Assembly: GCA_000702685.1 (NCBI GenBank)
Contig: JNJD01000008.1
Span: 75,223-139,222, forward strand
Length of the DNA: 64,000 bases
From: Lachnospiraceae bacterium AC2028
GTDB lineage: Bacteria > Bacillota > Clostridia > Lachnospirales > Lachnospiraceae
Direction of reading: 5' to 3'
This document shows, piece by piece, positions 2,720 to 5,114 of the stretch (position 1 is the first letter of the stretch; each line of letters opens with the position of its first letter). The notes beneath the pieces are model-generated. The model was not told the DNA's origin. It did not search any database and saw only the letters and a program-made list of their open reading frames with translations. The position numbers and the translations under genes are program-made.

Positions 2720-3061
2720 TTATGAGTTTAGTTCTTTCAATACGCTTTCCGGGTTGTAATCGGGGGCGTATTTTTGTGCTATATCATATATTTTGGAGAT
2801 ATGCTCCGGGTCTTCCTCAAGTTCTTTTGCAATTTGATCAATCGTGAGGCCTCGAGAGAGCTTTTTACAGATCAGTGAGACGAGATAATCGGTTTTTCCT
2901 TTTTCAATACCTTCCTCAAGCCCTTTATCGTATCCACCCGTTTCGGCAGCATGAAGAGAGTACAGATATCTCTGATGCGCTTCGAAAATGGTTTTCTCTT
3001 GGCTTTGAATAACCGCTTCGTACATAACTTCTGCTACCTCCTCTCCGTATAAATATAGCAC
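2720..3061 (-). pseudogene. C-terminal remnant of an Rpn/PD-(D/E)XK transposase-like nuclease
   Basis: This 113-codon frame (GTG at 3061, or ATG at 3025 behind a GGAGAGGAGG site) contains only the distal part of the Rpn (recombination-promoting nuclease) family. Visible hallmarks are the RYLYSLHAAE segment, the GLEEGIEKGK linker and the C-terminal helical segment KLSRGLTIDQIAKEL. The N-terminal PD-(D/E)XK catalytic core of about 180 residues is missing. The frame is closed upstream by a TGA at about 3089. It is therefore most likely a decayed copy and without nuclease activity, although the ATG with a good ribosome site could still produce a short protein. A repeat-like sequence lies immediately upstream at 3131. 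Confidence 0.7.
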
Positions 3062-3130
3062 ATTTATTCTTAGTTGGGGAACAGGTCTTCATACCCATAT
3101 TAAGCGGAATGTAAACAGATTCTTACGGGG

Positions 3131-3157
3131 TGAACAGAGGAACCGTCCCCTCGTACA
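3131..3157. repeat. Family B short repeat (TGAAC..GAGGAACCGTCCCC)
   Basis: The sequence tgaacagaggaaccgtcccc matches elements at 56651, 57305 and, more loosely, 43231 and 63554. It lies between the Rpn remnant and the riboswitch. Here the right arm is degenerate. Confidence 0.5.
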
Positions 3158-3210
3158 TTAAGAGGCTGATTTAAGAGTTTTTTAATTGACGTTGTTAAGC
3201 TGATTTAGTA

Positions 3211-3295
3211 AGATTAAATCAAATAAGGGCAAACTATCCGAGAGGGTAGGACGCAAAGTTGTAAGCCTTAAAGAGCAAGTCAAGGCGGTTTAACT
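3211..3295 (+). ncRNA. Cyclic-di-GMP-I (GEMM-I) riboswitch aptamer
   Basis: The conserved core of class I c-di-GMP riboswitches is directly readable. GGGCAAAC at 3227-3234 is followed by a hairpin with a GNRA tetraloop (tatcc-gaga-gggta) and then GACGCAAAG at 3250-3258. The second arm carries GCCTTAAAG, a tetraloop-receptor-like segment, and a GCCTT/AAGGC helix. A closing P1 can form between ag(a)ttaaatc (3211-3220) and ggtttaact (3287-3295). The aptamer sits 95 bases before the start of the secreted repeat protein at 3390, followed by a terminator. A candidate promoter TTGACG-17-TAAGAT (3186-3214) would start too far downstream to include all of P1. A weaker upstream one (TTAAGA-17-TTTAAT, 3158-3186) would include it, so the transcription start is unresolved. 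Confidence 0.92.
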
Positions 3296-3332
3296 GCAAT
3301 CAGATGAGATTATCTTGTTTGGTTGCTTTTTT
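3296..3332 (+). terminator. Riboswitch expression platform: intrinsic terminator
   Basis: gcaatcagatgaga (3296-3309) pairs over 14 positions, with several G-U pairs, with tcttgtttggttgc (3313-3326) across a 3-base loop, and six T follow. The 3' arm bases cttgtttggtt (3314-3324) can instead pair over 11 bp with aatcaaataag (3217-3227), which overlaps the 5' strand of P1. This is a plausible antiterminator, so ligand binding (P1 formed) should favour termination, predicting an OFF switch. Confidence 0.8.
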
Positions 3333-3389
3333 GTTTTTATAGACAAAATAGCACAGGCAGGATAAGCAAAGTTAACCGGAGGTAAGTTT

Positions 3390-5114
3390 ATGAAAAAGAG
3401 TCTCAGACAAAAGGGTGGAAAACGCATAGCTTCCATAGTTATGAGCGCGCTTATTGCGTTCACCGGAGTGGGCCTGCTTCCGCAGTTTGCTATGACTGCT
3501 CATGCGATGCTTTATATAATTGATTTAGATTCCGCTTCCGCTGCGGTGATGGAGAATTTATCTGTAACTGAAGATAGCACAATAAATCTATCCGGCACCT
3601 CGAATGGTAATATTGTCAAAATCACTGTTGCGGCTTATAAAACTGCAACGATCAACCTTAATGACGTTAATATAGATGTTTCAAGCAGTCAGAATATCTG
3701 TGCATTCAATATCTCAGGAGCGGGAAATGCCGTAATCAACCTTTCCGGCACGAATGTACTTAAAAGCGGTGAGTTTTGTGCCGGTCTTCAAAAGGATAGT
3801 ACGGGATCATTTACCATTTCCGGAACAGGATCGCTTGAAGCAATCGGTGGATCGCATGGAGCCGGAATCGGTGGTGGAAGTAATGGATCCGGTTCGAATA
3901 TAGAAATATCCGGCGGAACGGTAACAGCAATCGGGTCATGCGGAGGAGCCGGCATCGGTGGTGGAAATAATGGATCCGGTTCGAATATAGAAATATCCGG
4001 CGGAACGGTAACAGCAATCGGAGGAAGTGGAGCCGGTATCGGTGGTGGAGATTTAGGATCTTGCTCGAATATTGTAATATCCGGCGGAACGGTAACGGCA
4101 ACCAGTGAATATGGTGGAGCCGGTATCGGTGGTGGATATAGTGGATCCGGTTCGAATATAGAAATATCCGGCGGAACGGTAACAGCAATCGGGTCATGCG
4201 GAGGAGCCGGCATCGGTGGAGGCAAATCAGGTACCGGAAGTGATGTAACAATTTCCGGCGATGCGTATGTTTCTGTGGCCGGAGGTGCGGCTCAGACTGA
4301 TCCATCGAATGCAGTATATGGCGCCGGCGCCGGAATAGGAAATGGAGGAGGCCGTGATTCCGGACAAAATCCTGTCAATGGAACTGAAGTTGCTCCTGAT
4401 TTATCAGGTATGAATGGTTCGGGATGTCTTAAATATTTTACTGCCGGAACAACCTCATCAGCTATTAATGCAGGGACTGTTCAACCGACCGGCACAATTA
4501 CAGGTCCGTTTTATGCAATTACGGTAAACTCTGCGGGACATGGCTCGGCATCTGCAAGTGAATCGTATGCAGCATCCGGAACCGATATAACTCTTACCGC
4601 AATTCCGGACAGCAATTATATTTTTAGTGAGTGGCTGATCTCTCCGAATACCGTTTCGATATCGAATGACAGTTTTTCAATGCCTGATTCGGCGGTGACA
4701 GTTACGGCGGTATTTGAAGTGGATCCTCAGACGCTGACCACTCCTTCTACCACGACGGTTGCAGCGTCTTCCGAACCGGAGCCTCCCGTCAATCCCATGC
4801 AGGAAGTGGAGGACGATATTGCCGCAGCAATTGCCCTCGGCGGAGAACAGACTGTCACTATCAAGGGTTATTCCGCACTTTCAAGCGATGTAATGGAATT
4901 GCTGGCTGAGCATCCTCAGATCACTGTTGTTACAGAGTTTTCTTTTGACGGACTCGATTATAAGATCACGATCCCGGGATCGGCGGTAAAACTCAATCCC
5001 GCGATAGAATGGTACGGCCCGAAGTATCTCTTCCCCATGTTCTACATGTACGGAACCGATACGACTCCTTCATTGCAGGCATATGTTGAGAAATACCCTG
5101 TCCCTGTTTCGTGA
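3390..5114 (+). CDS. Secreted glycine-rich repeat protein under c-di-GMP riboswitch control
   Basis: A 574-residue protein. Residues 1-39 form a signal peptide (basic start, hydrophobic core, AHA cleavage region). Residues 40-155 resemble the Cthe_2159-type carbohydrate-binding/beta-helix repeats. Residues about 155-290 hold five 28-29-residue units (AGIGGGNNGSGSNIEISGG). Residues 375-445 match the divergent InlB B-repeat/bacterial repeat fold (ITVNSAGHGSASASESYAA to VTAVFE). A Thr/Pro linker leads to the 105-residue C-terminal domain shared with the protein ending at 991. No LPXTG or membrane anchor is visible. The start has a strong site, cggaggtaagtttATG. A substrate-binding or adhesive role at the cell surface is inference from fold type and from c-di-GMP control, which often governs such proteins in Clostridia. 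Confidence 0.85.
   Translation: MKKSLRQKGGKRIASIVMSALIAFTGVGLLPQFAMTAHAMLYIIDLDSASAAVMENLSVTEDSTINLSGTSNGNIVKITVAAYKTATINLNDVNIDVSSSQNICAFNISGAGNAVINLSGTNVLKSGEFCAGLQKDSTGSFTISGTGSLEAIGGSHGAGIGGGSNGSGSNIEISGGTVTAIGSCGGAGIGGGNNGSGSNIEISGGTVTAIGGSGAGIGGGDLGSCSNIVISGGTVTATSEYGGAGIGGGYSGSGSNIEISGGTVTAIGSCGGAGIGGGKSGTGSDVTISGDAYVSVAGGAAQTDPSNAVYGAGAGIGNGGGRDSGQNPVNGTEVAPDLSGMNGSGCLKYFTAGTTSSAINAGTVQPTGTITGPFYAITVNSAGHGSASASESYAASGTDITLTAIPDSNYIFSEWLISPNTVSISNDSFSMPDSAVTVTAVFEVDPQTLTTPSTTTVAASSEPEPPVNPMQEVEDDIAAAIALGGEQTVTIKGYSALSSDVMELLAEHPQITVVTEFSFDGLDYKITIPGSAVKLNPAIEWYGPKYLFPMFYMYGTDTTPSLQAYVEKYPVPVS
3861..4290 (+). repeat. Five 84-87-bp tandem coding repeats
   Basis: Unit starts (gccgg) lie at 3861, 3948, 4032, 4119 and 4206. 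A stretch of about 50 bases containing tcgaatatagaaatatccgg and the following ggcggaacggtaacagcaat is identical in three units, indicating recent duplication or gene conversion. Confidence 0.9.

Follow-up and report, generated by a model that had tools for sequence, protein, structure and literature searches.

Locus and controlled gene

Only one match above the Rfam gathering score occurs in the window (the whole 64,000-nucleotide stretch of DNA from Lachnospiraceae bacterium AC2028 analysed here), namely a class I c-di-GMP (GEMM-I) aptamer, which is also the sole match to RF01051 in its own genome at E ≤ 1. The aptamer is preceded by a promoter-like sequence and followed, on the same strand, by a gene for a secreted-type protein of 574 amino acids (Table 1). 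Pfam matches in this protein are Beta_helix_3 and a divergent InlB B-repeat domain, and a single-sequence structure model of poor confidence (mean pLDDT 54.4) contains many short strands at residues ~40–300, as a beta-helix would. NCBIfam returned no family for this protein or for its homologue at locus L031 discussed below. A previous sequence-only reading of the locus had tied the riboswitch to a surface-type protein, a link that the secreted-type product supports, whereas its description of the protein as carbohydrate-binding-like finds no support in Pfam.

Enzymes of c-di-GMP are abundant in the genome, where matches to GGDEF, EAL and PilZ domains number 33, 13 and 1, respectively, with GGDEF matches at ~21356 and ~33545 and an EAL match at ~32193 inside the window. 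A paralogue of the controlled gene begins ~4.0 kb upstream of it (L051:8582, C8:74581; L051 is the window's own neighbourhood) in a frame that runs into unknown bases. The upstream regions of the two genes have a 58-bp block and the ribosome-site/start region in common but not the riboswitch segment, and no c-di-GMP-I match was listed for the region upstream of the paralogue at E ≤ 5. The 58-bp block is identical in both places (window 3100–3157, L051 8382–8439), contains AGAGGAACCGTCCCCTC and seems to belong to a segment that was duplicated or is repeated. By eye, a 113-aa frame at 2720–3061 (− strand) is similar to the C-terminal portion of the product of a 314-aa gene upstream of the paralogue (L051 7298–8242, − strand), and the two neighbouring genes seem to have been duplicated as a pair. 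The C-terminal domain of the controlled protein is encoded in 14 of the 31 genus genomes, own included, and GEMM-I in 6 of the 30 others, none of these 6 having both on one contig.

Table 1. Positions of features in and around the riboswitch, numbered from the first nucleotide of the window
Feature	Position	Strand	Basis and remarks
Promoter-like TTGACG-17-TAAGAT	3186–3214	+	Scan; both boxes and the 17-nt spacer kept in L031
Class I c-di-GMP (GEMM-I) aptamer	3218–3301	+	Rfam RF01051, full length; G3228 = G20 and C3297 = C92 by alignment
5′ leader strand, can pair with 3314–3321 (8 bp, probably the transcribed part of an 11-bp pairing)	3220–3227	+	−5.2 kcal/mol
P2 hairpin with GNRA loop (GAGA; GCGA in L031)	3234–3249	+	Rfam alignment; loop change retains GNRA
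P3 stem	3257–3295	+	Rfam alignment, folds; C3286 is U in L031, retaining the pair (G-C to G-U)
Intrinsic terminator, 14-bp stem, then T run 3327–3332	3296–3326	+	Scan, fold; 31/31 bases same in L031
Ribosome-binding site GGAGGT	3378–3383	+	Sequence; outside the riboswitch
Controlled gene, 574-aa protein: signal-peptide-like start (by eye), beta-helix repeats, InlB-B-type domain, C-terminal domain common to L031	3390–5114	+	

Aptamer and conserved copy

The aptamer covers the complete RF01051 model (positions 1–87) and scores 53.7 bits (cut-off 35, E 1.1e-7), which upholds the assignment to GEMM-I made earlier from the sequence. Its parts are all present, including the GGGCAAAC core, a GNRA-capped P2, the GACGCAAAG core and P3. 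Aligned to the model, G3228 and C3297 fall at what we take, partly from general knowledge of the Vc2 numbering, to be positions 20 and 92. No canonical P1 was found, pairing between the leader and the 12 nt after C92 amounting to −1.5 kcal/mol (p 0.33, shuffle test). Candidate P1 strands noted by eye at 3200–3205 or 3212–3215, pairing with 3298–3303, were rejected as they lie in the promoter, before the probable transcript start. P1 is typical of GEMM-I rather than defining, being absent in the accepted member Cd1, and G20 and C92 have ligand-contact roles, both according to the available part of PMC9262584. The sequence supports a class I riboswitch with a c-di-GMP-type pocket (G at 20, C at 92), and the aptamer would be expected to bind this ligand.

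A protein search of named genomes gave 13 loci. Rfam was run on 9 of them and on L051, and in L051 the window's own element alone appeared. Among the 9, only L031 (JAIKYA010000179.1, rumen Lachnospiraceae RUI469) carries a c-di-GMP-I match before its gene, scoring 52.4 bits. The two sequences are identical at 113 of 123 positions in 3220–3342, against 28/60 upstream (3160–3219) and 38/78 downstream (3343–3420). Of the ten differences within the block, seven lie in the P3 tip; the others are the GAGA/GCGA change in the P2 loop, C3286, where the P3 pair is kept, and T3327A. The proteins have a C-terminal domain of ~110 aa in common (73% identical) and differ in their N-terminal parts, with beta-helix and InlB-B-type domains in the window and DUF6273 in L031. 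Comparing L031:1519–3105 with window 3390–5114, riboswitch and C-terminal domain have been retained together and the N-terminal module is different. DNA searches found no further whole-element copy, either among 298 family genomes (6 matched including the own match, the other five with stretches of 28–42 nt only) or among 31 genus genomes (2 matched including the own match, the other with a 33-nt stretch only).

The promoter scan is weak alone (1 found vs 1.6 expected from shuffles); the L031 promoter is TTGACT-17-TAAAAT, with the same 17-nt spacing, and the −35 and −10 boxes are kept although the surrounding region is poorly conserved overall. Transcription probably starts at ~3220–3222, in keeping with both the conserved promoter and the abrupt onset of conservation at 3220, and 3217 to 3219 or 3220 are therefore probably untranscribed. 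The ribosome-binding site and the start codon at 3390 lie well outside the riboswitch, and control by termination is therefore likelier than masking of the ribosome-binding site.

Terminator overlaps the ligand-pairing C

The terminator has 14 pairs (4 G-C) and a loop of 3, is followed by TTTTTTGTTT and folds with −14.3 kcal/mol, in agreement with the earlier claim of a 14-bp terminator with a T run. Its 5′ arm begins 1 nt before C92 and overlaps the aptamer by 2 nt, the basal pairs being G3296–C3326 and C3297–G3325, of which C3297 aligns to the ligand-pairing C92. Because the terminator takes in this residue, bound aptamer and full terminator are mutually exclusive. Removal of the two basal pairs leaves −8.3 kcal/mol, a loss of 6.0 kcal/mol.

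Folds with the aptamer held (G3228, G3296 and C3297 kept free of RNA pairs, transcript starts 3220–3222) use equilibrium free energies that contain no tertiary or ligand terms and are a crude proxy for co-transcriptional choice; by this measure holding the aptamer costs 0.4–0.8 kcal/mol up to 3324 and 5.1–6.2 kcal/mol from 3326 on, and in L031 0.4–2.1 and later 5.3–7.0 kcal/mol. A 12-bp terminator still forms with C3297 held (P 0.96–1.00 in equilibrium folds), and the ligand may therefore only weaken termination.

As far as the available part of PMC9262584 describes them, aptamer and terminator are mutually exclusive in the pilM ON-switch and coexist in the Cd1 OFF-switch. The arrangement in the window is that of the ON-type, pilM-like platform, in which the terminator 5′ arm includes the ligand-pairing C; the 2-nt overlap departs from the OFF-type, Cd1-like arrangement, in which the terminator is separate and both structures form in full.

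Two terminator layouts among relatives

We classified 176 GEMM-I elements, comprising 39 from a genus search (40 of the 42 listed matches, including the window), 135 from a wider search (drawn from the best-scoring matches listed, about a dozen listed ones being left out), L031 and the window. Requiring −7 kcal/mol or better within 170 nt, and with the overlap scan limited to 12 nt before C92, a terminator was found in 132 of the 176 elements (window included) and none by scan in 44. In 39 of the 132 the 5′ arm includes C92, beginning 1 to 12 nt ahead of it (21 at 5 nt, 7 at 1 nt, and 29/39 at 5 nt or more). The other 93 terminators are separate and begin 6–114 nt after C92, with 0/132 beginning 0–5 nt after. 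When the downstream 170 nt were shuffled (dinucleotides kept, 20 rounds), 0–3 of 176 elements gave overlap and 3–10 separate terminators. Both layouts are therefore real and distinct. The 39 overlap-type elements come from 21 genomes (7 from G184, 5 from G178 and 4 from G169) and are not all independent. A preliminary scan of 71 elements with a narrower loop limit, which gave 8/48 overlap, is superseded by these counts.

An A at position 20, which we take to be the change marking 3′,3′-cGAMP-sensing variants, occurs in 24 of the 176 elements, e.g. L149, L211, L048 (G034:C1:241728) and L047 (G006:C1:82883). Near-identical elements (L044, L045, L047 and L022) are found in more than one genus genome with the upstream inverted repeat GGGGGTTRCCCCC or a close version of it, and genome G014 has four GEMM-I matches; this dispersed unit with its inverted repeat may be mobile.

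The genes downstream of the two layouts were compared using the first frame of at least 100 aa (36/39 overlap-type elements; 76 distinct frames from 77/93 separate-type elements) and Pfam matches at E ≤ 1e-4, the figures being drawn from the 25 of 31 families listed for the overlap type and the 25 of 88 listed for the separate type. Among the families listed, overlap-type genes include T2SSE + MshEN pilus motors (3), VTC (3), Flg_new (2), CBM_2 (2, both in one genome) and one GT2/Cellulose_synt protein with PilZ, as well as families matched once whose bearing on sign is not evident (subtilase, phosphorylase, LytTR, FHA, DivIVA and others). Separate-type genes, among the families listed, include PAS (8), GGDEF, response regulator, transglutaminase and CAP (6 each), histidine kinase and solute-binding (5 each), MCP (4) and others; T2SSE and VTC do not appear among the 25 of 88 separate-type families listed, a listing in which some of the families matched once are out of view. 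Six other elements have the terminator boundary seen in the window, 1 nt ahead of C92. Two of them stand in front of genes for Flg_new proteins (L071, L148), and the rest in front of genes for a pilus motor (L176), a LytTR regulator (L169), a GT2/cellulose synthase that also carries PilZ (L129) and a product for which Pfam gives no match (L158).

Since c-di-GMP as a rule promotes pili and cellulose and represses chemotaxis, these genes fit the sign that the layout predicts. This agreement of gene content with the layout rule is partial, many genes of both classes being uninformative on sign, and a counter-example is the separate-type L048 (A at position 20), whose downstream gene encodes a protein bearing a type IV pilin N-methylation motif.

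Sign of the switch

We posit that the element is a transcriptional class I c-di-GMP riboswitch and probably an ON-switch. An RNA starting at ~3221 would, in the absence of ligand, fold P2, P3 and then the 14-bp terminator, and transcription would stop in the T run. On binding of c-di-GMP, C3297 would pair with the ligand and G3296 would be held in the pocket, blocking the two basal G-C pairs at a modelled loss of ~6 kcal/mol and shifting the stem foot 2 nt from the T run. The terminator so weakened would permit more read-through into the surface protein gene. We infer the sign, along with ligand binding, the start site and the strength of the effect, and favour ON because the terminator overlaps C92, a layout as in pilM and unlike Cd1. 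The overlap is just 2 nt, compared with the 5 nt or more before C92 at which most overlap-type terminators begin, and no measured example with exactly this boundary was found in the literature searched.

The sequence-only reading proposed the opposite sign, in which the ligand stabilises the aptamer and the leader (3217–3227) is withdrawn from the terminator 3′ arm so that the terminator forms, and this we regard as unlikely. The 11-bp complementarity of the leader to 3314–3324 on which it was built does exist (−8.5 kcal/mol) and is strong, with 0/300 shuffles matching it for a 14-nt leader and a chance probability of 0.01 for 18 nt. The corresponding values in L031 are 0.057 and 0.125; its bases at the probably untranscribed end differ, and 8 contiguous, probably transcribed pairs remain. 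Class I switches of C. difficile are, moreover, described as OFF in the available part of PMC11477304. However, 3–4 of the 11 pairs precede the probable transcript start, so that the proposed antiterminator would be transcribed only in part, and the pairing is reduced to −5.2 kcal/mol from 3220 and −2.6 to −4.1 kcal/mol from 3221, against −14.3 kcal/mol for the terminator. In equilibrium folds of the free RNA the leader pairing is transient, with P 0.85, 0.24 and 0.03 at transcript end 3321 for starts at 3220, 3221 and 3222, at most 0.11 at 3324 and 0.00 at 3326. The ligand-free terminator already wins from 3326, and there would therefore be little left to repress. The supposed exclusion of P1 also falls away, in that no canonical P1 competing for the leader was found, and any 3′ strand of a P1 downstream of C92 would coincide with the 5′ arm of the terminator itself. 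The minimum-energy fold of 3217–3321 contains both the leader pairing and the aptamer core; since the pairing adjoins the core without excluding it, it would, if active, more likely aid an ON-switch as a P1 substitute. Together with the inclusion of C3297 in the terminator, these points leave the OFF-type logic unsupported.

Leader pairing with the terminator 3′ arm was rejected as a class-wide antiterminator, being found at p ≤ 0.05 in 1/39 overlap-type elements (the window itself) and 4/93 separate-type elements. A P1 formed by the leader and a 3′ strand within 12 nt after C92 was likewise rejected as a class-wide feature (0/39 and 5/93).

We consider it quite improbable that a binding aptamer stands before a constitutive or little affected terminator, as a weak or vestigial switch or one acting by another mechanism such as RNA stability. 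The small overlap and the survival of the 12-bp stem when C3297 is held would fit such an arrangement, as would the closely related paralogous gene, which manages without a riboswitch; the 123-nt block has nevertheless been kept in L031, while its flanks and the N-terminal part of the protein have not. Sensing of 3′,3′-cGAMP instead of c-di-GMP is highly improbable, for although cGAMP-sensing variants belong to the same RNA family and are marked by one pocket-base change (PMC9481103, available part), position 20 is named as a selectivity factor (PMC9262584, available part) and 24 of the elements classified above carry A there, the window and L031 both have G.

If the ON reading holds, the surface protein would be made in the sessile and not the motile state, the reverse of the earlier reading, and a rumen-type Lachnospiraceae would have a secreted surface-type protein tied to c-di-GMP through the only GEMM-I match of its genome. 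More broadly, the overlap rule would allow the sign of many switches of the GEMM-I family to be predicted simply from their sequence. We tentatively extend the ON reading, in a form that we see as possible but rather doubtful, to class I switches of Lachnospiraceae and their order as two sequence-readable classes of opposite sign, with a C92-overlapping terminator meaning ON (pili, cellulose, surface proteins) and a separate one OFF (chemotaxis, signalling), and with the leader of the riboswitch in the window pairing with the terminator 3′ arm and, stacked on the bound ligand, standing in for P1.

Comparison with known systems

The RNA class, the ligand type and both layouts are already known, and ON predictions for some class I switches have been published (PMC9481103, available part). 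A literature search for c-di-GMP riboswitches in Lachnospiraceae, whose reach did not extend to most subscription journals, gave only work on biofilm of C. difficile.

The window belongs to the same RNA family as pilM of Geobacter metallireducens, a GEMM-I transcriptional ON-switch for 3′,3′-cGAMP, and resembles it in the mutual exclusion of terminator and aptamer, the pilM terminator using the aptamer's stabilising 3′ strand (PMC9262584, available part). It differs from pilM in having G at position 20 (c-di-GMP type), no detected P1 between leader and 3′ strand and an overlap of only 2 nt. With Cd1 of the Clostridioides difficile flgB operon, a GEMM-I transcriptional OFF-switch for c-di-GMP, the window has in common the family, the ligand type and the lack of a P1 next to the pocket; in the available part of PMC9262584, one C of Cd1 (C87) pairs with the ligand, no P1 is seen, and terminator and aptamer coexist, unlike in the window, where the terminator overlaps the ligand-pairing C.

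The L031 copy is alike in the conserved block and in its position before a gene whose secreted-type product has the same C-terminal domain; it differs at the P3 tip, around the promoter and in the N-terminal portion of the encoded protein, which is DUF6273 and not beta-helix. The predicted output, a surface protein at high c-di-GMP, is like that of the class II c-di-GMP ON riboswitches that precede adhesin and pilin genes in C. difficile (PMC11477304, available part), which differ from the element in the window in belonging to an unrelated RNA class.
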